50,407 nucleotides of DNA. It comes from Actinomycetota bacterium (GTDB taxonomy: Bacteria > Actinomycetota > Aquicultoria > Subteraquimicrobiales > UBA9087). Of this stretch, positions 4,346 to 45,018 are shown one piece after another. The stretch's first letter is position 1. Each line of letters begins with the position of its first letter. The notes beneath the pieces were generated by a model. It had not been told where the DNA came from and made no database searches. It was given only the letters and a program-made list of their open reading frames with translations. Made by a program: the position numbers and the translations under genes. The stretch is from assembly GCA_030019215.1 (NCBI GenBank), contig JASEEZ010000015.1, forward strand, positions 1-50,407. Reading direction: 5' to 3'.

Positions 4346-4442
4346 CTAGTACCGTTACAACTTAATTAGCCTAATTGGTCTTACTCCGTTAGAAAAGTGA
4401 CCTTCTAACAAGGTTAGCTGAAAATAGTTGTAACGGCACTAG
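4346..4442. mobile_element. MITE-like element, copy A (97 bp)
   Basis: The ends are inverted: CTAGTACCGTTACAACT at 4346-4362 and AGTTGTAACGGCACTAG at 4426-4442, with one mismatch. The outer CTAG is present at both ends and fits a 4-bp target duplication. The interior has no coding capacity. It fills the gap between rnhB and yraN, and its end forms the TAG stop codon of rnhB. Related copies are at 37984, 40529 and 44949. Confidence 0.75.
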
Positions 4443-26734: not shown

Positions 26735-26955
26735 CCTCTAAAACCAAAATCCTAATCTCTAAATCCCAATTATAAAATTAGTTGACAGTTGACAGTTCAC
26801 CGTTGACAGATTCCGCCAGCTTAGAGCGTAGAGCTCGGAGCTTAGAGAAAATTCTTCGTTCCTCGTCCTTCGCCTCTGGTCTCTGGCCTCTGGTTCCTGG
26901 TTCCTCGTCCTTCGTCCTTCGTCCCTTGACTCTTGACTCCTGACTGTTTTTCATC
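26735..26955. repeat. 7-bp periodic degenerate tandem repeat
   Basis: The gap between rsmD and recG is made of short degenerate tandem runs that all keep one 7-base phase: AATCCTA/ATCTCTA-type units, then GTTGACA units, then GCTTAGA/GCGTAGA/GCTCGGA, then TCCTCGT/CCTTCGT/TCTGGCC units and finally ACTCTTG/ACTCCTG. The phase is unbroken for about 220 bases although the unit changes. There is no coding capacity. It resembles the heptanucleotide repeats described in some cyanobacteria, although the sequences differ. Confidence 0.75.
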
Positions 26956-26983: not shown

Positions 26984-29242
26984 TTAGCTATGAAAGAGCC
27001 AATCAAGATTGGCTGCGAACTTTCTTTGTACTTCCATTAGAAGTAGTCGGTGCTCAGGAAAGTTTAGACTGGGATCACGCTCCACGATATCGAAAGCCTC
27101 TTTCCTAGCTTCTAAAAGAACATCCACGTCCCGCACGACTTTAGCCAGCTTTAAATCGGGTAAGCCCGATTGACGCATCCCAAAGACCTGGCCCTCTCCT
27201 CGAATCTCCAAGTCAGCCTCGGCTAGTTGAAAGCCATCCTTGATCCTCCTTATGGCCTCCATGCGCGCTCTCCCTTCCTCAGTAGCGGGATCGGCGAAAA
27301 GAATGCAGTAAGATTTGTGCTGCCCCCTGCCAATTCTTCCCCTTAGTTGGTGAAGCTGGGCCAGACCAAATCTCTCAGCATCTTCCACCAGCATAACCGA
27401 GGCATTGGGCACATCTATACCCACCTCAACGACGGTGGTGGAGATCAAAATATCCAGAGAGCCCTTGCGGAAGCGCTGCATGACCTCCTCTTTTTCGGCC
27501 GGCCTGAGTTTGCCATGGATGAAACCTACTCTGAGATCGGGAAAAATCTCATTTTGAAGGCGCGCCGCCTCCTCCATAACCGCCCTAGTCTGAATCTTGT
27601 CAGACTCCTCTATGAGAGGACAGACGATGTAAGCCTGCCTGCCCTGTTCGATCTCGCTCCTTATCTTTTCATAGGCCCACCGGCGGTGATCCTTGTCGCA
27701 GACGAAGGTCTTGACGTGCTCCGTCAAACTTCTCCCGCCGGGTAACTCCCGAATAATGGAGACATCCAAATCACCATAAAGGGTCAAAGAGAGGGTCCTG
27801 GGAATAGGAGTGGCGGTCATGACGAGGACATCCGGTTGCTGTCCCGATGTCCATCGGGATGATATCGGGGAGTACCCCTTTTCCTTGAGATTCACCCTCT
27901 GTCTAACACCAAATCTGTGCTGTTCATCGATCACGACCACACCGAGCTTTTTGAACCCGACCTCATCTTGTATCAAGGCATGCGTTCCCACGATGATATC
28001 CACATTACCATCCTTGATATCCCTCTGAATCTCCCCTTTTTCGCTAGCCGTCAGACCACCGGTGAGCAGAGCGAAATTTACATCCAGACCCTGCAAGAAA
28101 GTTTCCATCTTCAAAAAGTGTTGCTCGGCTAAAATCTCGGTGGGAGCCATAACTGCCCCTTGATATCCACCTTGGACGCCGATGAGTAGAGCAACTAATG
28201 CAACGACTGTTTTCCCCGACCCCACCTCGCCCTGCAACAAGCGATTCATGGGGTGAGGAGCCTCCATGTCCCTCCGTATCTCAGCAATCACCCTCCTTTG
28301 GTCGGAGGTCAGCTCGAAGGGTAATAAACAGCAGAAGCGCTCCATGAGATCCCCCGACCCCCGATGTCTGATACCGCGTGTATCCAGCCCCAAGCGCCTC
28401 TTACGAATTGCCAGCCCCAGTTGCATCAAGAACAGCTCCTCGAAAAGAAATCTCTTCCTGGCCCTTTTACATGACACCTCGCTACTAGGGAAGTGAATCT
28501 CCCTAAAAGAAAGAGCGCGGGGGGGGAAATCACGCTTGGTCCTCAGATGAGCAGGTAGAGGATCGGGTAAATCGGCGCAAGAATCCACCAAATCCTTGAT
28601 GATCCTTCTCAGCCTAGCCGAAGAGAGCTTCTGGGTGGCCGGATGGAGGGGAACAATGCGGCTGGTATGAACGGTATCCCTTCCCAGATCCGTCTTCTCA
28701 TCTATCACTTCAAAGAGAGGATTCTCCATCTGGAGTCTGCTATATCGAAAAAAAACTTTCCCGCTGAAAGCAGCGGTTGTCCCCTCCCCAAGCCTGTCGG
28801 CGATGAAATCTTGATTGAACCAAACCCCGTAAAGGTAGCCCGTCCCGTCATAGATCCCGATATTCAATACGCGGATGCCCTTGCGACTTCTAAACCTTTT
28901 GATCTGCCGGACCACCCCCACCACCGTGACCTCTTCTCCCTCTCGAAGCTGGGAAATCTTTCTTATCCTCCCCAGATCTAGGTAGCGGTGGGGGAAATGG
29001 TAGAGCAAATCCTCAACTGTCTCTATGTCCAAGCGCTTAAGATGCCTGGCCGTGGTGGAACCAACATGCTTGAGGGATTGAACTGGGGAGTCCAAGAAAG
29101 ACTGACAATCCGCCCGCCCGCGCTTCGGGAAATTAACTCTACCTCCTGCTAGGGAGGAATAATTCAAAGGGCTAAAATCACCTGGTCGCCCGAAGAGTCC
29201 GTCCTTCCGCGAGCCACATCTGCTGGTGGACATGAACGTCAC
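26984..29242 (-). CDS. recG: ATP-dependent DNA helicase RecG
   Basis: RecG remodels stalled replication forks and Holliday junctions. The 752-residue protein has a non-conserved N-terminus of about 50 residues, then the wedge/OB domain (SLKHVGSTTARHLKRL, YHFPHRYLDL, GEEVTVVGVV), the helicase core with Walker A LLQGEVGSGKTVVALVALL, the DEQH box VVIDEQHRFGVRQR, MTATPIPRTLSLTLYGDLD, STTVVEVGIDVPNASVMLVE and HQLRGRIGRGQHKSYC. The GTG start has GAGGAA upstream; an ATG three codons later is possible. Between FGVRQRVNLKEKG and PDVLVMTATP there is an insert of about 13 residues (YSPISSRWTSGQQ) encoded by a palindromic DNA element that also occurs in the TPP riboswitch. Confidence 0.96.
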   Translation of the reverse strand: MTFMSTSRCGSRKDGLFGRPGDFSPLNYSSLAGGRVNFPKRGRADCQSFLDSPVQSLKHVGSTTARHLKRLDIETVEDLLYHFPHRYLDLGRIRKISQLREGEEVTVVGVVRQIKRFRSRKGIRVLNIGIYDGTGYLYGVWFNQDFIADRLGEGTTAAFSGKVFFRYSRLQMENPLFEVIDEKTDLGRDTVHTSRIVPLHPATQKLSSARLRRIIKDLVDSCADLPDPLPAHLRTKRDFPPRALSFREIHFPSSEVSCKRARKRFLFEELFLMQLGLAIRKRRLGLDTRGIRHRGSGDLMERFCCLLPFELTSDQRRVIAEIRRDMEAPHPMNRLLQGEVGSGKTVVALVALLIGVQGGYQGAVMAPTEILAEQHFLKMETFLQGLDVNFALLTGGLTASEKGEIQRDIKDGNVDIIVGTHALIQDEVGFKKLGVVVIDEQHRFGVRQRVNLKEKGYSPISSRWTSGQQPDVLVMTATPIPRTLSLTLYGDLDVSIIRELPGGRSLTEHVKTFVCDKDHRRWAYEKIRSEIEQGRQAYIVCPLIEESDKIQTRAVMEEAARLQNEIFPDLRVGFIHGKLRPAEKEEVMQRFRKGSLDILISTTVVEVGIDVPNASVMLVEDAERFGLAQLHQLRGRIGRGQHKSYCILFADPATEEGRARMEAIRRIKDGFQLAEADLEIRGEGQVFGMRQSGLPDLKLAKVVRDVDVLLEARKEAFDIVERDPSLNFPEHRLLLMEVQRKFAANLDWLFHS
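27840..27872. repeat. Palindromic element inside recG
   Basis: CCCGATGTCCATCGGG at 27843-27858 is a near-perfect palindrome (seven-base arms around TC), followed by a further GATATCGGGG. It lies in frame in recG and encodes the ISSRWTS insert. The identical 16 bases, in the same orientation, are at 38950-38965. Confidence 0.7.
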
Positions 29243-34197: not shown

Positions 34198-34995
34198 TCA
34201 CTCGTAGGGATCAACAGAAGAGGGGATGGTTTGCGATCTTCCTCCACCCAAAGGGTAGGCCCGCTCGATCTTTTCAACCACATATTTCCTGGCAAGCTCA
34301 ACGGCTTTACAAATGCTCTTTCCATGTGCCAGATGAGCTGCTATCGCTGAGGAAAGAAGGCAGCCTGTCCCACGAACATTTCCACTCAATTTGTTGATAG
34401 AAAACTCAAAGAAAGACTCGCCATCAAAAAAGACATCGATACACTTATCGCCCCCAAGGTGTCCCCCTTTCACCAGGACATTCTGAGGACCAAGCGCTTT
34501 AATCCCCTTCGCTGCCCGCTTCATATCGGCGACGCCACCGATAGAAAATCCAGCTAACGCCGAGGCCTCCAAGATATTCGGAGTAACGACGGTCGCCAGG
34601 GGAAGGAGCAAGTTCTTAAAGACAGGAATAGCTGATGTTTCCAGCAGCGGAATTCCATCTGTGGATTCAAAAACGGGATCGACCACCACATTTGAGGATC
34701 CCGTTTCTCCTAAAAGCTCAGCGACGACCGCAACATTTTCCCGCGCTCCCAGCATACCAACCTTCACCGCATCAACTTCACAATCGGCAAAAACAGCCTT
34801 CATTTGCTCTTTAACCACCTTGGAGGGGACTGGCTGAACGATTCTCACGCCCAAGCTATTCTGAGCGGTAACCGCGGTGACCACGGTAAAAGGGAAAGTA
34901 CTCAGCTCAACAAGGGTAAAGATATCGACTTGGAGACCAGCCCCGGAACTGCTATCCGAGCCGGCTATCGCCATTACTTTCCTTATTCCCTTCAT
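34198..34995 (-). CDS. thiD: Hydroxymethylpyrimidine/phosphomethylpyrimidine kinase ThiD
   Basis: ThiD phosphorylates HMP twice to HMP-PP. The 265-residue ribokinase-fold protein has VMAIAGSDSSSGAGLQVDIF, VTAVTAQNSLGV, VVDPVFESTDG, TPNILEASALAG, VLVKGGHLGGD and the C-terminal anion hole in NVRGTGCLLSSAIAAHLAHG. It is the last gene of the thiamine operon; its ATG overlaps the thiL stop by four bases. Confidence 0.95.
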   Translation of the reverse strand: MKGIRKVMAIAGSDSSSGAGLQVDIFTLVELSTFPFTVVTAVTAQNSLGVRIVQPVPSKVVKEQMKAVFADCEVDAVKVGMLGARENVAVVAELLGETGSSNVVVDPVFESTDGIPLLETSAIPVFKNLLLPLATVVTPNILEASALAGFSIGGVADMKRAAKGIKALGPQNVLVKGGHLGGDKCIDVFFDGESFFEFSINKLSGNVRGTGCLLSSAIAAHLAHGKSICKAVELARKYVVEKIERAYPLGGGRSQTIPSSVDPYE

Positions 34996-36020
34996 CCTTC
35001 CCTCTCGCTCTTTGCCATTTTGAAGTGATCATAGCCCGCCCCAAGAGGGGATATTGTTCCCTCCCGACCCACCAAAACGATTCCTTCCTCCTCGCGAACG
35101 ATGTCTCCCACCAGGGTCACTGCGGTCTTCGTCTCCCGAAAAACTCGCCCGGCCATATCTCTGGACCGGTGAGCCGGGACGGTAAAGACAAGCTCGTAAT
35201 CCTCGCCTCCGTAGAGAGCGAGATCTTCCAGTCTCATACCGGCAGCCTTCGCGACCTCCTTCACCCCTAAAGCTATAGGGATATCTTCCAGATACAACCT
35301 GGCCCCTACTCCGCTCTCCTGGCATATGTGAGTTACCTCGCTGGCAAGCCCATCACTGATATCCTCCATGGCGTGAATGCCATGCATGGCTGCCGCCCTA
35401 GCCTCCTTAACCCGAGCCAGGGGCATTAGATGAGCTCTTTTTAATTTCTCCTTGCGTTTCGGAACCGCCTTCTCAAGCTCAGTGTGTAAAAGAAGTTGAA
35501 GTCCGGCCGCCGAAGCCCCAAGACAGCCGGTGACGAGAATTTTGTCTCCGACGTGGGCGGTGGCCCGGCGGCAGAGCATCTCTATCTCCACCTCACCCAA
35601 TATGAAAACACTCAAGGTGAGACGGGTTGCCCGAGTAATATCCCCACCGATGATCGACAGTCCGTATTCTCCCGCCGCCTCCATCATCCCCAAATAGAGC
35701 TGTTCCACAAAATTCATGCTCGTTTCCGACCTCAAGCCCAAGGAAACCAAAGCAAAGTGGGGAAATCCACCCATGGCCGCGACGTCGCTCACGTTTACCA
35801 CAATGGATTTATAACCCAGCTGAAAGGGAGTTATCAGTGGGAACTTGAAGTGAACGCCCTCGACCAACATATCGGTGGTCAGAACATCAAAGTGCCCCAT
35901 GATGGGAATGGTGACCGCCGCATCATCTCCAATCGCCACCACAACCCGGTCATCATGGGTGGTAACAAGCTTCCTAATCCTCTCTATAAGCTCCGCTTCT
36001 CCGATATCCTTGATGCGCAT
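34992..36020 (-). CDS. thiL: Thiamine-monophosphate kinase ThiL
   Basis: ThiL phosphorylates thiamine monophosphate to TPP. The 342-residue protein has the PurM-like motifs VVAIGDDAAVT, TTDMLVEGVHF, KSIVVNVSDVAAMGGFPHFA, IIGGDITRATRLTLSVFILG, AMEDISDGLASEVTHICQES and YGGEDYELVFTVP. It lies nine bases downstream of thiC and overlaps thiD. Confidence 0.95.
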   Translation of the reverse strand: MRIKDIGEAELIERIRKLVTTHDDRVVVAIGDDAAVTIPIMGHFDVLTTDMLVEGVHFKFPLITPFQLGYKSIVVNVSDVAAMGGFPHFALVSLGLRSETSMNFVEQLYLGMMEAAGEYGLSIIGGDITRATRLTLSVFILGEVEIEMLCRRATAHVGDKILVTGCLGASAAGLQLLLHTELEKAVPKRKEKLKRAHLMPLARVKEARAAAMHGIHAMEDISDGLASEVTHICQESGVGARLYLEDIPIALGVKEVAKAAGMRLEDLALYGGEDYELVFTVPAHRSRDMAGRVFRETKTAVTLVGDIVREEEGIVLVGREGTISPLGAGYDHFKMAKSEREG

Positions 36021-36028
36021 GCCTCATC

Positions 36029-37330
36029 CTAACATTTTTCTCCCCGATCGGATCCCAGAAACTCCCCGACCAGTTTCATTGCGCAGAATTCCCCGCACAT
36101 CGTACAGGTTTCCTCATTCGGTACTTTCCTCTCCTCATAGGCTCTCCTCGCCTTCTCTGGGTCGATGGCCAACTCGATCTCCTTCTGCCAGTCGAGAGCC
36201 TTTCTGGCCCTGGCCATCTCCAGATCCCAGTCCTTAGCCCCAGGGACACCCTTAGCTATGTCGGCAGCGTGTGCGGCAATCCTGGAGGCGATGACTCCTT
36301 CCCTGACATCCCCTACCGTCGGAAGGCCAAGATGTTCGCGGGGGGTCACATAGCAGAGGAAGTCCGCACCAGCCCAAGCAGCCAGAGCTCCACCGATGGC
36401 GGAGCTTATGTGATCATAATCAGGCGCCACATCAGTGACGAGGGGACCCAGAACATAGAAGGGCGCCCCCTTGCAAATGCTCTTTGCCATCCTCATATTT
36501 GCCTCGATGTGGTCCAGGGGTAAATGACCGGGCCCCTCCACCATAACCTGAACCTGGGCCTCCCTGGCTCTCTCGACCAACCGCCCAAGGGTTACCAACT
36601 CTTGAATCTGTGCCCCATCGGAGGCATCGGCGAGACAACCGGGACGCATGCCATCCCCCAAGCTCAGAGTGAGATCGTAACGTCTGGCAATTTCAAGAAG
36701 CCTATCGAACTGTTTATAAAGGGGATTTTCTTTTTCATTATGGATCATCCAGCCGACCACAAAGGCACCTCCACGGCTAACAACATCCATGACTCGCTTC
36801 TGTCGCACGAGGGCATTGAGCGCTTCCCGGGTGATTCCACAATGAACAGTCGCAAAATCAACTCCATCTTTGGCGTGCTCCTCGATGACCCCAAATAGAT
36901 GATCCACAGTCATTTCAACGATGCTACCGTATTTTTCCAAGGCATCGACCGCCGCCTGATAGATGGGGACGGTACCAACCGGAAGCGAGGCGTGGGACAA
37001 GATCTCCCGCCTTATCTCTCGCAGGTCTCCTCCCGTGCTCAAATCCATCACAGCATCAGCACCGGTTGCAACGGCCACCTTCAACTTTTCGAGCTCCTCC
37101 TTCAGAAAGGGATAGTCCTCCGAGGTTCCGATATTGGCATTCACCTTGGTGCGCAAGCCCTCACCGATACCAATGGATCGAACCATCGTCCGATTCACGT
37201 TTCGGGGAACGACAACCCTGCCCTCGATAACACTTCGACAGAGCCGATCAAGAGCAACCCCTTCCTCCGAAGCCAACTCCTCAACAGACTTTGGAACATC
37301 CCCCGCCTTTATTCTCTCAATTAAGGTCAT
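36029..37330 (-). CDS. thiC: Phosphomethylpyrimidine synthase ThiC
   Basis: ThiC is the radical SAM enzyme that turns AIR into HMP-P. The 433-residue protein is the shorter type without the extra N-terminal domain. Motifs: NANIGTSEDYPFLKEELEK, GADAVMDLSTGGDLREIRRE, FATVHCGITREALNAL, LSLGDGMRPGCLADASDGAQ, MVEGPGHLPLDHIEANM and YDHISSAIGGALAAWAGADF. The cluster motif near the C-terminus reads CTMCGEFC, spacing CX2CX3C, one residue shorter than the CX2CX4C of the long bacterial form. It overlaps thiE by four bases with GAAGGAGA as ribosome-binding site. Confidence 0.96.
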   Translation of the reverse strand: MTLIERIKAGDVPKSVEELASEEGVALDRLCRSVIEGRVVVPRNVNRTMVRSIGIGEGLRTKVNANIGTSEDYPFLKEELEKLKVAVATGADAVMDLSTGGDLREIRREILSHASLPVGTVPIYQAAVDALEKYGSIVEMTVDHLFGVIEEHAKDGVDFATVHCGITREALNALVRQKRVMDVVSRGGAFVVGWMIHNEKENPLYKQFDRLLEIARRYDLTLSLGDGMRPGCLADASDGAQIQELVTLGRLVERAREAQVQVMVEGPGHLPLDHIEANMRMAKSICKGAPFYVLGPLVTDVAPDYDHISSAIGGALAAWAGADFLCYVTPREHLGLPTVGDVREGVIASRIAAHAADIAKGVPGAKDWDLEMARARKALDWQKEIELAIDPEKARRAYEERKVPNEETCTMCGEFCAMKLVGEFLGSDRGEKC

Positions 37331-37974
37331 TCTCCTTCGCCTACCTTGTTTTTTTTCGCCCTTATGATCTTCCCCAACAAATCCTCACTCGCCCTTCTCA
37401 TCTCCGGAGCAAAAGCCACAGCTGAAATCACTGCCACGCCATCTGCCCCGGCCTCGATTATGGCCTCCACGTTATCGAGCGACACTCCACCAATGGCAAC
37501 TATGGGAATATCGATGGTTTTCTTAATGTCGCTCAAAGTTTTAAGCCCAGTGGGCTCCCCCGCATCGCCCTTGGAGGAAGTCGCAAAGATCGGGCCGACG
37601 CCGAGATAATCGGCACCGCCTCTCGCCGCCTGAACTGCCTCCTCCAGATTTCGAGCCGAGACCCCGATTATCCTCTCCGATCCCAAAATGCGCCGTGCCA
37701 TCTCTAGGGACATATCATCTTGACCGATGTGCACTCCCAATGCACCCACCGCCAGAGCAATATCGAGTCTATCGTTAATTATCAAAGGAATTTCTCTATC
37801 GGCTAACAGTTCATGAAGGGCCATTGCCATCTCCAGAACCTCACGCGTGCTCTTCCCCTTCTCCCGAAACTGGATGATGGTGGCACCTCCCTTCACCGCC
37901 TCCCTGGCTACATCCAGATGGGTTCGGCCCAGTTTTGGAACGTCCGCCGTTATCACATATAAACTGTAATCCAA
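37327..37974 (-). CDS. thiE: Thiamine-phosphate synthase ThiE
   Basis: ThiE joins HMP-PP and thiazole phosphate. The 215-residue TIM barrel has GATIIQFREKGKSTREVLE, PLIINDRLDIALAVGALGVH, IGQDDMSLEMARRILG, GVSARNLEEAVQAARGGADY, GVGPIFATSSKGDAGEP and IPIVAIGGVSLDNVEAIIEAG, all family signatures. The start is TTG. The gap to thiM upstream holds a short MITE copy. Confidence 0.96.
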   Translation of the reverse strand: MDYSLYVITADVPKLGRTHLDVAREAVKGGATIIQFREKGKSTREVLEMAMALHELLADREIPLIINDRLDIALAVGALGVHIGQDDMSLEMARRILGSERIIGVSARNLEEAVQAARGGADYLGVGPIFATSSKGDAGEPTGLKTLSDIKKTIDIPIVAIGGVSLDNVEAIIEAGADGVAVISAVAFAPEMRRASEDLLGKIIRAKKNKVGEGE

Positions 37975-37983
37975 ACCAACCCC

Positions 37984-38017
37984 CTAGTGCCGTTACAACT
38001 ATTTCCTATGGTACTAG
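37984..38017. mobile_element. MITE-like element, copy B (34 bp, internally deleted)
   Basis: Begins CTAGTGCCGTTACAACT (37984-38000), continues ATTTCCTAT and ends GGTACTAG (38010-38017). One end is complete and only about four bases of the other end remain inside the CTAG duplication. The final CTAG supplies the TAG stop codon of thiM. Confidence 0.65.
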
Positions 38018-38826
38018 GCCATTTGAACCCTGCACCCGCTCAAGATATCCTGGGAACTAAGGTGGGCCAGGGAATTATACAGAGCGACGTGAAAGGTCCC
38101 GGGAAGACCACCCGACTCGCGAGCGGCAATCTCCCCAGCAAGGCCGAAAGCCACCAGTCCACCCACGGTGGCCAAAAAACGATCCTTTTGAACAGCCGCA
38201 AAGGCCCCAATAAGGGTAGTGGCCATACAGCCCGTGCCCGTGACCGTGCTCAACATCGGATCACCGTTGCCAACCAGCGCCACCCTTCTCCCATCGCTCA
38301 CCAAATCCTCCTTGCCGGTCACAGCCACCACGCAATCTCGTTTAAAGGCAAACTCCTTGACTATTTCGAGCATGTTGTCCAAACCACCAACGGATTCAAC
38401 CCCCTTTATTTGCCCACCGTAACCCGCCAGGATTGATATCTCGGCTGAATTTCCCCTGATCACATCGATCTTTAAAGACTTGATTAGGTAGCGGGCGCTC
38501 TCGGTACGCAAGGAGGTAGCCCCCACACCCACCGGGTCCAGGATGATGGGAATATTGAGCTCATTGGCCACTCTACCCGCCAGGGTCATGGATTCGATCA
38601 ACTCGGGCGTGAGAGTTCCAATATTGAGAATTAGGGCCCCCGCTGCCCGAACCATCTCCTCGACTTCCTCCTTGGCGTGAGCCATAACTGGAAGAGCACC
38701 GATACAGAGTGTGACGTTGGCGGTCTCATTCATCACCACAAAATTGGTGATGTGATGAAGAAGCGGCTTTAGCCTGCGTACCCCATCCAAGTCTTGGACA
38801 ATCAGCTGAGCGATGTCTTTCTTCAC
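38014..38826 (-). CDS. thiM: Hydroxyethylthiazole kinase ThiM
   Basis: ThiM phosphorylates hydroxyethylthiazole, a salvage step. The 270-residue protein has PLLHHITNFVVMNETANVTL, GALPVMAHAKEEVEEMV, PIILDPVGVGATSLRT, VIRGNSAEISILAGYGGQIK, GVESVGGL and VTGTGCMATTLIGAFAAV (with the catalytic Cys). The start is GTG after GAGGAGGTAAACGAC. It is the first gene after the TPP riboswitch. The salvage thiM first, and no thiG/thiH/thiS here, suggests that thiazole is obtained by uptake or from genes elsewhere. Confidence 0.95.
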   Translation of the reverse strand: MKKDIAQLIVQDLDGVRRLKPLLHHITNFVVMNETANVTLCIGALPVMAHAKEEVEEMVRAAGALILNIGTLTPELIESMTLAGRVANELNIPIILDPVGVGATSLRTESARYLIKSLKIDVIRGNSAEISILAGYGGQIKGVESVGGLDNMLEIVKEFAFKRDCVVAVTGKEDLVSDGRRVALVGNGDPMLSTVTGTGCMATTLIGAFAAVQKDRFLATVGGLVAFGLAGEIAARESGGLPGTFHVALYNSLAHLSSQDILSGCRVQMA

Positions 38827-38852: not shown

Positions 38853-38887
38853 AAAAAACCGCCCTGCCAAACGGCGGGACGGTTTTT
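38853..38887 (-). terminator. Intrinsic terminator of the TPP riboswitch leader
   Basis: The minus strand folds as AAAAACCGTCCCGCC, a GTTT loop, and GGCAGGGCGGTTTTTT, a stable stem followed by a U-run, between the aptamer and the thiM ribosome-binding site. A competing hairpin (ATCTGC/GCAGAT, 38894-38916) touches the last strand of aptamer stem P1. The arrangement fits control by transcription termination. Confidence 0.8.
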
Positions 38888-38915: not shown

Positions 38916-39044
38916 ATCTCATTATCCCTTCGCTGGCATTACCCAGCCCCCCGATGTCCATCGGGGGGGCCTCAACGGCTCAGGTTCAAACGGTCGACCA
39001 TACAGTCCTCTCAGCCTTGCCATCGGCGAGGCTCCCGTTGAGAT
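38916..39044 (-). promoter_or_regulatory. TPP riboswitch (THI element)
   Basis: The minus strand carries the core of the TPP aptamer: GGGAGCC, GGCTGAGAGG (CTGAGA at 39014-39009), TTGAACCTGA (38980-38987) and CTGGGTAATGCCAGCGAAGG (38931-38948 region), closed by P1 ATCTCA/TGAGAT (39044-39039 and 38921-38916). It lies upstream of thiM. Unusually, about 30 bases including a 10-bp-arm palindrome (38947-38968) stand between GAACCTGA and CTGGGTAATG, where most TPP aptamers have one or two bases. Confidence 0.93.
38947..38968. repeat. Palindromic element inside the TPP riboswitch
   Basis: CCCCCCGATG and CATCGGGGGG flank a central TC. Its core CCCGATGTCCATCGGG (38950-38965) is identical, in the same orientation, to the element in recG at 27843. 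It sits in the junction before aptamer helix P4/P5. Confidence 0.7.
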
Positions 39045-39060: not shown

Positions 39061-39066
39061 ATTATA
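39061..39066 (-). promoter_or_regulatory. Extended -10 promoter of the thi operon
   Basis: Minus-strand CTGCTATAAT (extended -10) about 17 bases before the first base of aptamer stem P1. No clear -35. It would start the riboswitch leader at about 39054. Confidence 0.55.
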
Positions 39067-39159: not shown

Positions 39160-40140
39160 ATGCTAAAAAGACTCATCTTACCCTTCAAGAAATCCCTGAA
39201 AATAGTGCTGGTCACAGTGACGGTTGCGGTGCTTCTAGTGCTGGTGGGAGCCACCACTTACAGCTATCTAATCTTTCCGAACTACATCGGCAAAACACCC
39301 CCGCCACCTCCCTCAATCCCGACAGGAACCAGCGTCGAAGTCGCTGGAAGAAAGATTCACTACATCAAGGAGGGTGAAGGGAAGCCCCTCATCCTAATCC
39401 ACGGCTTCGGTGGCTCTACCTTTAGCTGGCGTCACAACATCAATCCCCTATCGAAGACTTTCACCGTCTACACGCTTGATCTTCCCGGATTTGGTCTCTC
39501 GGAGAAGTCAACTACGTTCAGATACTCGACCCTAGCCCACGCGGAACTGGTAAAAAATTTCATGAAAGCGCTGAGAATCGATAAGGCGACCCTAGTCGGG
39601 CATTCCATGGGGGGCGAAGTGGCCATAATCGTTGCTCTTCAATACCCAGAAAAGGTGGAAAAGCTGATTCTCATAGACAGCCCGATCGAACAGAGCTACC
39701 CACACCCCTTAATGAGACTGCTAGCCAGCCCTCCATTGGGCAAAGTGCTCGTAAGAAGCATCCTCTTCAACGCAAAATCAGTTGAATTCGCCCTCAAGAG
39801 GTCCTATTACGACAACAAACTCGTCACCAAAGAGGTTATCACGGGCTACTTTTACCCCATGAGGACCAAGGGAGCCGATGAAGCCTTTCTGGCCATGAGC
39901 AGAAGTTACATCATCACCGAAGTAAAAGACGGCCTCCAATACCTTTACCTCCCCGCCCTCATAATATGGGGAGAGAAAGACAGACTGGTTCTGGTGGACC
40001 GGGGACACTTCCTGCACGGGCAGATCAGAAAATCCAAACTCATTATCATCCCCGAATGTGGTCACTCGCCAATGGAGGAGAAACCGGCGAGGATTAATGA
40101 CTTAATCGAACGATTCGCCACAGGAAAAACACTTGAATAA
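39160..40140 (+). CDS. Membrane-anchored alpha/beta hydrolase
   Basis: The 326-residue protein has an uncleaved-looking N-terminal membrane anchor (about residues 14-37, IVLVTVTVAVLLVLVGATTY) and an alpha/beta hydrolase domain placed outside the cytoplasm. Catalytic pieces: oxyanion HGFGGSTFSW, nucleophile in LVGHSMGGEVAIIVAL, acid Asp in IIWGEKDRLVLV and His in IPECGHSPMEEKP. Substrate is unknown; esterase/lipase or haloperoxidase-like are possible. It is the first gene on the plus strand after the divergent thi operon and converges with the cupin gene (16 bases between stops). Confidence 0.88.
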   Translation: MLKRLILPFKKSLKIVLVTVTVAVLLVLVGATTYSYLIFPNYIGKTPPPPPSIPTGTSVEVAGRKIHYIKEGEGKPLILIHGFGGSTFSWRHNINPLSKTFTVYTLDLPGFGLSEKSTTFRYSTLAHAELVKNFMKALRIDKATLVGHSMGGEVAIIVALQYPEKVEKLILIDSPIEQSYPHPLMRLLASPPLGKVLVRSILFNAKSVEFALKRSYYDNKLVTKEVITGYFYPMRTKGADEAFLAMSRSYIITEVKDGLQYLYLPALIIWGEKDRLVLVDRGHFLHGQIRKSKLIIIPECGHSPMEEKPARINDLIERFATGKTLE

Positions 40141-40156: not shown

Positions 40157-40495
40157 CTATTTGATGGGCACGAGACAGATAAATTGCAAACACCCCGCCG
40201 ATGGCGGGGTGTTTGCAATCTGATGCTCCTCGTTAGCGGGGACAAAAATGACATCACCGACGCTTAAAGGGATCTCGCCATCTTTTCCCACCGCCGCTCC
40301 CTTGCCCTCGAGAATGAAGATCTCATGTTCCCAATCGTGGGCGTGATAGGGGGTTGCGCATCCGGCCTCGACCTCAAATACCCGCATCGCAAAATTGGGA
40401 GCCCCGTCCCCTTCACCTATCACCCAGCGCACGGTGACCCCCGGCGTGCCCTCGACGGGCTCGCTTTTGACCTCTCGATAGTTACAAATCTTCAT
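40157..40495 (-). CDS. Cupin domain protein
   Basis: Single-domain cupin of 112 residues. I chose the ATG at 40495 (MKICNYREVKSEPVEG), with GGAGGGGGG upstream. Metal-binding cupin motif 1 is [20 protein letters not shown] (two His, one Glu) and motif 2 is VGDVIFVPANEEHQIANTP. The role (dioxygenase, isomerase or sensor) cannot be told. The last part of the gene (40183-40219) contains a perfect 17-bp inverted repeat with a three-base loop, encoding IANTPPSAGCLQ; homologues usually have a NTGDEPLRF-type sequence here, so this end looks locally remodelled. Confidence 0.87.
   Translation of the reverse strand: MKICNYREVKSEPVEGTPGVTVRWVIGEGDGAPNFAMRVFEVEAGCATPYHAHDWEHEIFILEGKGAAVGKDGEIPLSVGDVIFVPANEEHQIANTPPSAGCLQFICLVPIK
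40183..40219. repeat. Perfect 17-bp hairpin at the cupin gene end
   Basis: ATTGCAAACACCCCGCC and GGCGGGGTGTTTGCAAT with GAT as loop. It lies inside the cupin coding region near its stop and between two converging genes. No U-run follows on either strand, so a normal intrinsic terminator is unlikely. Confidence 0.8.
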
Positions 40496-40528: not shown

Positions 40529-40560
40529 CTAGTGCCGTTACAACTTTAAAATAGAACATT
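40529..40560. mobile_element. MITE-like element, copy C (one end only)
   Basis: CTAGTGCCGTTACAACT at 40529-40545, then TTAAAATAGAACATT, which matches the inner side of one end of copy D (CTAAGATAGAACATT). No second end is found nearby. It lies just upstream of the cupin gene. Confidence 0.6.
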
Positions 40561-44948: not shown

Positions 44949-45018
44949 CCAGTGCCGTTACAACTATTTCTTATATTGCTTGTTTCAATGTTCTATCTTA
45001 GGGTTGTAACGGTACCAG
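44949..45018. mobile_element. MITE-like element, copy D (70 bp)
   Basis: CCAG then TGCCGTTACAAC at one end and GTTGTAACGGTA then CCAG at the other. The CCAG is a direct repeat, not an inverted one, and so is good evidence for a 4-bp target-site duplication. The end encodes the last six residues (LVPLQP) and the TAA stop of the GerMN gene. Confidence 0.8.

Follow-up and report, generated by a model that had tools for sequence, protein, structure and literature searches.

What happens to a riboswitch when a long, perfectly palindromic hairpin lies in the core of its aptamer, and how did the same palindrome come to occur elsewhere in the genome? The case lies in a window of 50,407 nt (the whole stretch of DNA analysed, contig JASEEZ010000015.1) from the genome of an uncultured Actinomycetota lineage (1.63 Mb, 52 contigs) whose most similar ThiM fragment is that of Candidatus Subteraquimicrobium. 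A preliminary description had noted about 30 bases with a 10-bp-arm hairpin in the core of a TPP riboswitch; it suggested either a new extra helix next to the pyrophosphate sensor or a thi operon left constitutive or permanently off. We consider it likely that the insert is an accessory helix in J4/5 tipped by a copied, genome-specific palindrome and that the riboswitch still works.

The riboswitch and its insert

The aptamer matches the complete RF00059 model (positions 1-105) with 37.4 bits (E 6e-6). This is under the gathering score of the family (54.3 bits), and the default Rfam scan of the window reported nothing. The score is this low because of a 33-nt insert, which agrees with the length first noted; its palindrome lies where it had been placed (Table 1). 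In the covariance-model scan that had been proposed, the P4/P5 segment is elided by the alignment and treated as an unmodelled insertion, which locates the insert there; RF00059 does not align the hairpin to a normal variable stem. On the minus strand the order is GAACCUGA-GCCGUUGAGGCCCCCCCGAUGGACAUCGGGGGG-CUGGGUAAUGCCAGCGAAGGGA, where the 33 nt of the middle segment occupy the 5' strand of the P4/P5 internal loop. The palindrome has perfect 10-bp arms and takes up the 3' two thirds of the insert, the remainder being GCC-GUUGA-GGC. In the whole window no more than four perfect hairpins have arms that reach 9 bp.

Table 1. Features of the thi locus and of the palindrome copies in the window.
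Feature	Position	Strand	Evidence
TPP riboswitch aptamer, P1-P5 plus the J4/5 accessory helix	38908..39048	-	RF00059 match
P5 hairpin CUGGGUAAUGCCAG, intact	38933..38946	-	
33-nt insert between GAACCUGA (P4 5' strand) and CUGGGUAAUGCCAG (P5)	38947..38979	-	
22-bp palindrome CCCCCCGATG-TC-CATCGGGGGG	38947..38968	both	member of the 17-copy CCCGATGNNCATCGGG family
CCGUUGAG of the insert, perfect complement of the P1/P2 5' strand; candidate ligand-free pairing	38971..38978	-	
CUCAACGG, P1/P2 5' strand, partner of 38971-38978	39035..39042	-	
Extended -10 promoter candidate, TATAAT with TG one base upstream	39061..39066	-	read from sequence
Intrinsic terminator-like hairpin and U-run, between aptamer and thiM	38854..38887 (hairpin 38875-38858)	-	
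thiM (hydroxyethylthiazole kinase)	38014..38826	-	NF006830 1.7e-99
thiE	37327..37974	-	TIGR00693 5e-64
thiC	36029..37330	-	NF009895 1.1e-195
thiL	34992..36020	-	TIGR01379 9e-92
thiD	34198..34995	-	TIGR00097 3.5e-78
Palindrome core copy TCCCGATGTCCATCGGGA, in-frame in recG	27842..27859	both	

The element belongs to the TPP riboswitches (THI element): it resembles RF00059 in the match to the whole model, the core, the thi genes downstream and the terminator, and departs from a typical member by its helix-forming insert and its score under the gathering cut-off. The conserved GGGAGC, CUGAGA, GAACCUGA, GGGUAAUGCCAGCG and AGGGA are all present, and the GCG-AGGGA strand opposite the insert is unchanged, as is the remaining core. 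Downstream, thiM-thiE-thiC-thiL-thiD are all intact; no antiterminator was identified. Since no base of the core has changed and the pocket strand is undamaged, we infer that TPP binding has most likely been retained, with repression of the thi operon, probably through transcription termination. The effect of the palindrome itself would be neutral.

The optional helix described for the TPP riboswitch is P3a (PMC2258182), and the accessory helix lies at a different site. The possibility that the insert is ordinary P3a variation was rejected, as this aptamer has a distinct P3a whose length is normal. It is recognised in general terms that true members can score low when they have variable insertions in unusual places (PMC2258182). 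As in the riboswitch insertions treated by Barrick and Breaker (2007, PMC2258182), a stable stem-loop sits here in an aptamer whose core is undisturbed; unlike in those, one sequence recurs in unrelated RNAs of a single genome. In the open-access literature we found neither a TPP aptamer described with a helix in J4/5 nor a riboswitch described as capped by a palindrome.

Accessory helices at the same site in relatives

The thiM TPP riboswitches of about ten genomes of the Aquicultor family (which includes Candidatus Aquicultor) have a hairpin at the identical point of the aptamer. These hairpin-forming inserts differ widely in sequence (e.g., AUGCGAUUGCAAUCGCU, GGGCGGAUAAUCCGC, AACGGUAAAACCGUU). 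The helix is also found in one genome of another family of the class (G006) and in one genome of Coriobacteriia (L154). In these relatives the 5' strand of J4/5 measures 14-34 nt, against the few bases of ordinary relatives, in line with the earlier remark that the junction is usually short. This strand varies in length among ordinary aptamers too, whereas the GCG-AGGGA strand facing it is nearly constant. The long, low-scoring TPP matches of two other genomes (G008 and G023) were rejected by eye as accessory helices, since the additional bases come before the J4/5 strand.

An alignment of 12 accessory-helix aptamers, including the copy studied here, gave a covariation of 0.496 for the helix, against 0.239 ± 0.049 in shuffled alignments (0 of 500 reached the observed value) and 0.316 for the best slid version. 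In seven of its eight pairs both partners have changed, and the copy studied here conforms at all 48 invariant columns. A covariance model of the accessory-helix aptamers (R1) scores 110-131 bits in ten genomes of the Aquicultor family and at most 92 bits in ordinary TPP aptamers of the class. Even though it was part of the training set, our copy scores 73.1 bits, in the range of ordinary aptamers, because its insert is built differently. Outside the palindrome, the residual GCC-GUUGA-GGC has no clear homology to the Aquicultor helices except for a shared CGUUGAGGC. No further high-scoring group was found with R1 in 397 genomes of the phylum. Natural TPP aptamers thus appear to accept, on the evidence of covariation, a helix at a second place besides P3a, beside the pyrophosphate pocket, and members with such a J4/5 helix fall below the Rfam cut-off.

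The assembly of the genus mate (G001; 800 kb, 76% complete) gave a single 18-bit, chance-level match when searched for the thi riboswitch. Since the riboswitch is absent from this incomplete assembly, the nearest comparison for the exact site comes from G002-G004, which make up the one other family in the order. The thi riboswitches of these three genomes are syntenic and have an ordinary junction without helix. Their thi genes correspond to those of the window, and recG also follows in G002 and G004; the thi-recG cluster is thus syntenic in these two helix-less genomes and in a helix-bearing one (G007). By this distribution the helix was gained or lost more than once.

These comparisons alter what is peculiar about the locus. 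The earlier proposal of a new extra helix by the pyrophosphate sensor stands in that a repeat-derived helix does occupy the P4/P5 junction; it does not stand as to novelty, given the helices at this spot in the Aquicultor family, G006 and Coriobacteriia. The observation named at the outset as refuting it, a long covarying helix here in all related genomes, applies to several of them but only in part, because the syntenic riboswitches of G002-G004 have none. Judging from the sequences compared, the species-specific feature is the tip sequence and not the accessory helix itself.

A palindrome shared by structured RNAs, intergenic hairpins and protein genes

This genome has 17 copies of the palindrome CCCGATG-NN-CATCGGG (CCCGATGNNCATCGGG), where base composition predicts about 0.007, and 12 of the 17 are the identical 16-mer, loop included. 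The reversed-sequence control has no copy in the same genome. The palindrome is missing from G001, and each of 58 other relatives has one copy at most. Within the window, where 0.11 matches are expected by chance, the preliminary description had pointed to a second copy of the palindrome, and its core TCCCGATGTCCATCGGGA is indeed present inside recG. The arm CCCGATG alone is not over-represented in the window (11 observed, 15.6 expected), and an uptake-signal (DUS-like) word was rejected on these grounds. Carriage by phages was also rejected: seven exact matches to the 16-mer are scattered in viral contigs with no shared context.

Seven of the 17 copies lie in known structured RNAs: the TPP riboswitch, five T-boxes and the raiA RNA. 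The excess has a binomial p of about 3e-16 using the mapped RNAs, or 6e-10 if 1.2% of the genome is structured RNA, both rough figures because the set of RNAs was defined after the copies had been seen. Apart from three copies inside ORFs, the others are intergenic hairpins, several of them terminator-like with arms of 16-19 bp; across all copies the perfect arms span 8-19 bp. In the T-box leaders (five of the seven found in the genome) the palindrome sits in the stem III hairpin just before the antiterminator, and in the one copy examined the Rfam alignment treats it as an ordinary stem III hairpin. In the raiA RNA (L001:1462-1639, minus strand) it caps a consensus helix, and the Rfam alignment places it in an ordinary hairpin. 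This RNA has three palindromic hairpins, one CCCCCCGATGGACATCGGGGGG and two CCCCCGACGAGTCGGGGG, and one of the latter is an insertion outside the consensus helices. Transcripts use both orientations, with a GGAC loop in two T-boxes and the TPP aptamer and a GUCC loop in three T-boxes; copying at the DNA level therefore fits better than recognition of an RNA loop.

The T-box orthologs of G001 allow a direct comparison. Over about 150 nt, three of the four pairs are 88-91% identical and the fourth 79%. They have a common CCCC/GGGG stem base and a different stem III tip, as in CCCC-GCCGUAGGC-GGGG versus CCCC-GAUGGACAUC-GGGG, the other pairs being alike. Within one genome, regulatory RNAs of several classes are thus capped by a single repeat family, and it is at the tip that the T-box orthologs of the genus mate differ most strikingly. 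Another palindrome, CCTGTNTGCCGACAGG, lies inside stem III of a G001 T-box and just upstream of stem III in the orthologous T-box of our genome (L109:2604-2619, L106:5547-5562).

The three copies within ORFs are in recG, topA and an sbcD-like gene, the latter two named from the start of the protein. In recG the site is a linker that is longer or shorter depending on the relative. The topA copy is in-frame; the G001 gene, 92% identical overall, is palindrome-free and nine bases shorter there. The sbcD copy was assigned by ORF overlap only, which makes it probably in-frame, and the orthologs recovered are either short of the site or too distant.

The closest parallels are the Rickettsia palindromic elements (RPE) of 105-146 bp, which enter protein genes, tmRNA and RNase P RNA (PMC2229807). 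Like them, our family is a dispersed palindrome found between genes, within structured RNAs and, in-frame, in genes for proteins, with many near-identical copies in one genome and few elsewhere (17 versus 0-1 in 59 relatives). It differs in having a core of only 16-22 bp, with arms of 8-19 bp instead of 105-146 bp with terminal inverted repeats, and in being concentrated at the hairpin tips of a riboswitch and of T-boxes, where it takes the place of the tip that a stem already had. The double-hairpin elements and GC clusters of fungal mitochondria resemble our palindrome in being short mobile hairpins in variable regions of structured RNAs, but are mitochondrial.

Origin of the tip and fate of the riboswitch

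In the scenario that we favour, a site that already takes a helix in several relatives would have received, in this species, a copy of the palindrome as the apex of that helix. With the accessory helix, the internal loop between P4 and P5 would become a three-way junction, and the core would stay untouched. The palindrome may have spread through this one genome mainly into hairpin tips, and occasionally into tolerant protein loops. A plausible route is template switching or conversion between hairpins with a common CCCC/GGGG stem. In a tip or a variable junction a palindrome would merely lengthen a helix, so that the host RNA would survive and structured RNAs would be permissive sites. The case thus lets one ask how short palindromes spread, and whether the hairpins of structured RNAs are a safe harbour.

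Could the insert instead have changed or abolished regulation? That it destroyed the aptamer, making thi expression constitutive or permanently off, is suggested by its vicinity to the pyrophosphate-sensing loop and by the score below the gathering cut-off; with an intact core, intact thi genes and covarying helices at the same spot in relatives, we consider this very improbable, and the earlier suggestion to this effect found no support. A different proposal makes the insert an active part of the switch: without ligand, CCGUUGAG would pair with CUCAACGG and form an anti-aptamer strand that TPP must displace. The 8-bp complementarity is perfect (p 0.002 versus shuffled inserts), the alternative helix has a pair probability of 0.95-0.99, and the ligand-free minimum predicted by RNAfold is a non-aptamer fold that uses this pairing and lies 6.5 kcal/mol below the aptamer fold, a gap that shrinks to 2.3 kcal/mol with a canonical junction. 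Yet the pairing was noticed post hoc in a single sequence, energy models leave out tertiary structure and ligand, and none of the 11 accessory-helix relatives shows it; because of the latter we keep this unlikely reading as a side hypothesis. Slightly more credible, but still a long way from our preferred account, is a broader version in which the 16-22 bp palindrome spreads by replacing or entering hairpin apices as one exchangeable cap for unrelated RNAs, and in which the TPP insert also competes with P1/P2 and retunes the switch.

As to the origin of the tips, they might not have been copied at all but have converged, with selection favouring either stable RNA or a site to which a protein binds. 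The location of the copies at hairpin apices, some terminator-like, would fit this, as would a related frame, CCCGCC-NNN-GGCGGG, of which this genome contains 90 copies whose loops vary. Convergence accounts poorly for the 12 of 17 copies that are the same 16-mer including the loop, for the use of both orientations, for the copies in coding genes, and for the near absence of copies in relatives that have the same RNAs; we regard it as quite improbable. Nor do we give much credence to a spread by RAYT-type (Y1) transposases. As with REP elements, there are short palindromes and Y1 transposases in the genome, which has six PF01797 matches, but none of the three Y1_Tnp loci checked out of these six (L290, L294, L296) is flanked by the palindrome, unlike in REP/RAYT systems, and the palindrome-free G002 and G004 of the same order have three PF01797 matches each.

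The CCCGCC-NNN-GGCGGG frame also has 49 copies in G001 and none in G002-G004, and from these counts the genus seems to harbour several such hairpin families. One of the 90 copies forms the tip of a perfect hairpin with 17-bp arms, ATTGCAAACACCCCGCCGATGGCGGGGTGTTTGCAAT, at 40183-40219 of the window, near the 3' end of a plus-strand ORF (39160-40140). In two class mates, G010 (L223) and G017 (L225), TCCCGATGTCCATCGGGA tips other hairpin repeats, GTCATCGCGGAGGAG... and GATTGCTTC...GAAGCAATGACG. The window further contains a low-complexity, pyrimidine-rich CCTCTGG/TCCTTCG array just downstream of recG (26852-26947) and a dispersed repeat, AGTGCCGTTACAACT-A/T, present in both orientations (4346-4363, 4422-4442, 37984-38001, 40529-40546, and 44949-44966), one pair of which forms a 21-nt perfect inverted match across 33.5 kb.
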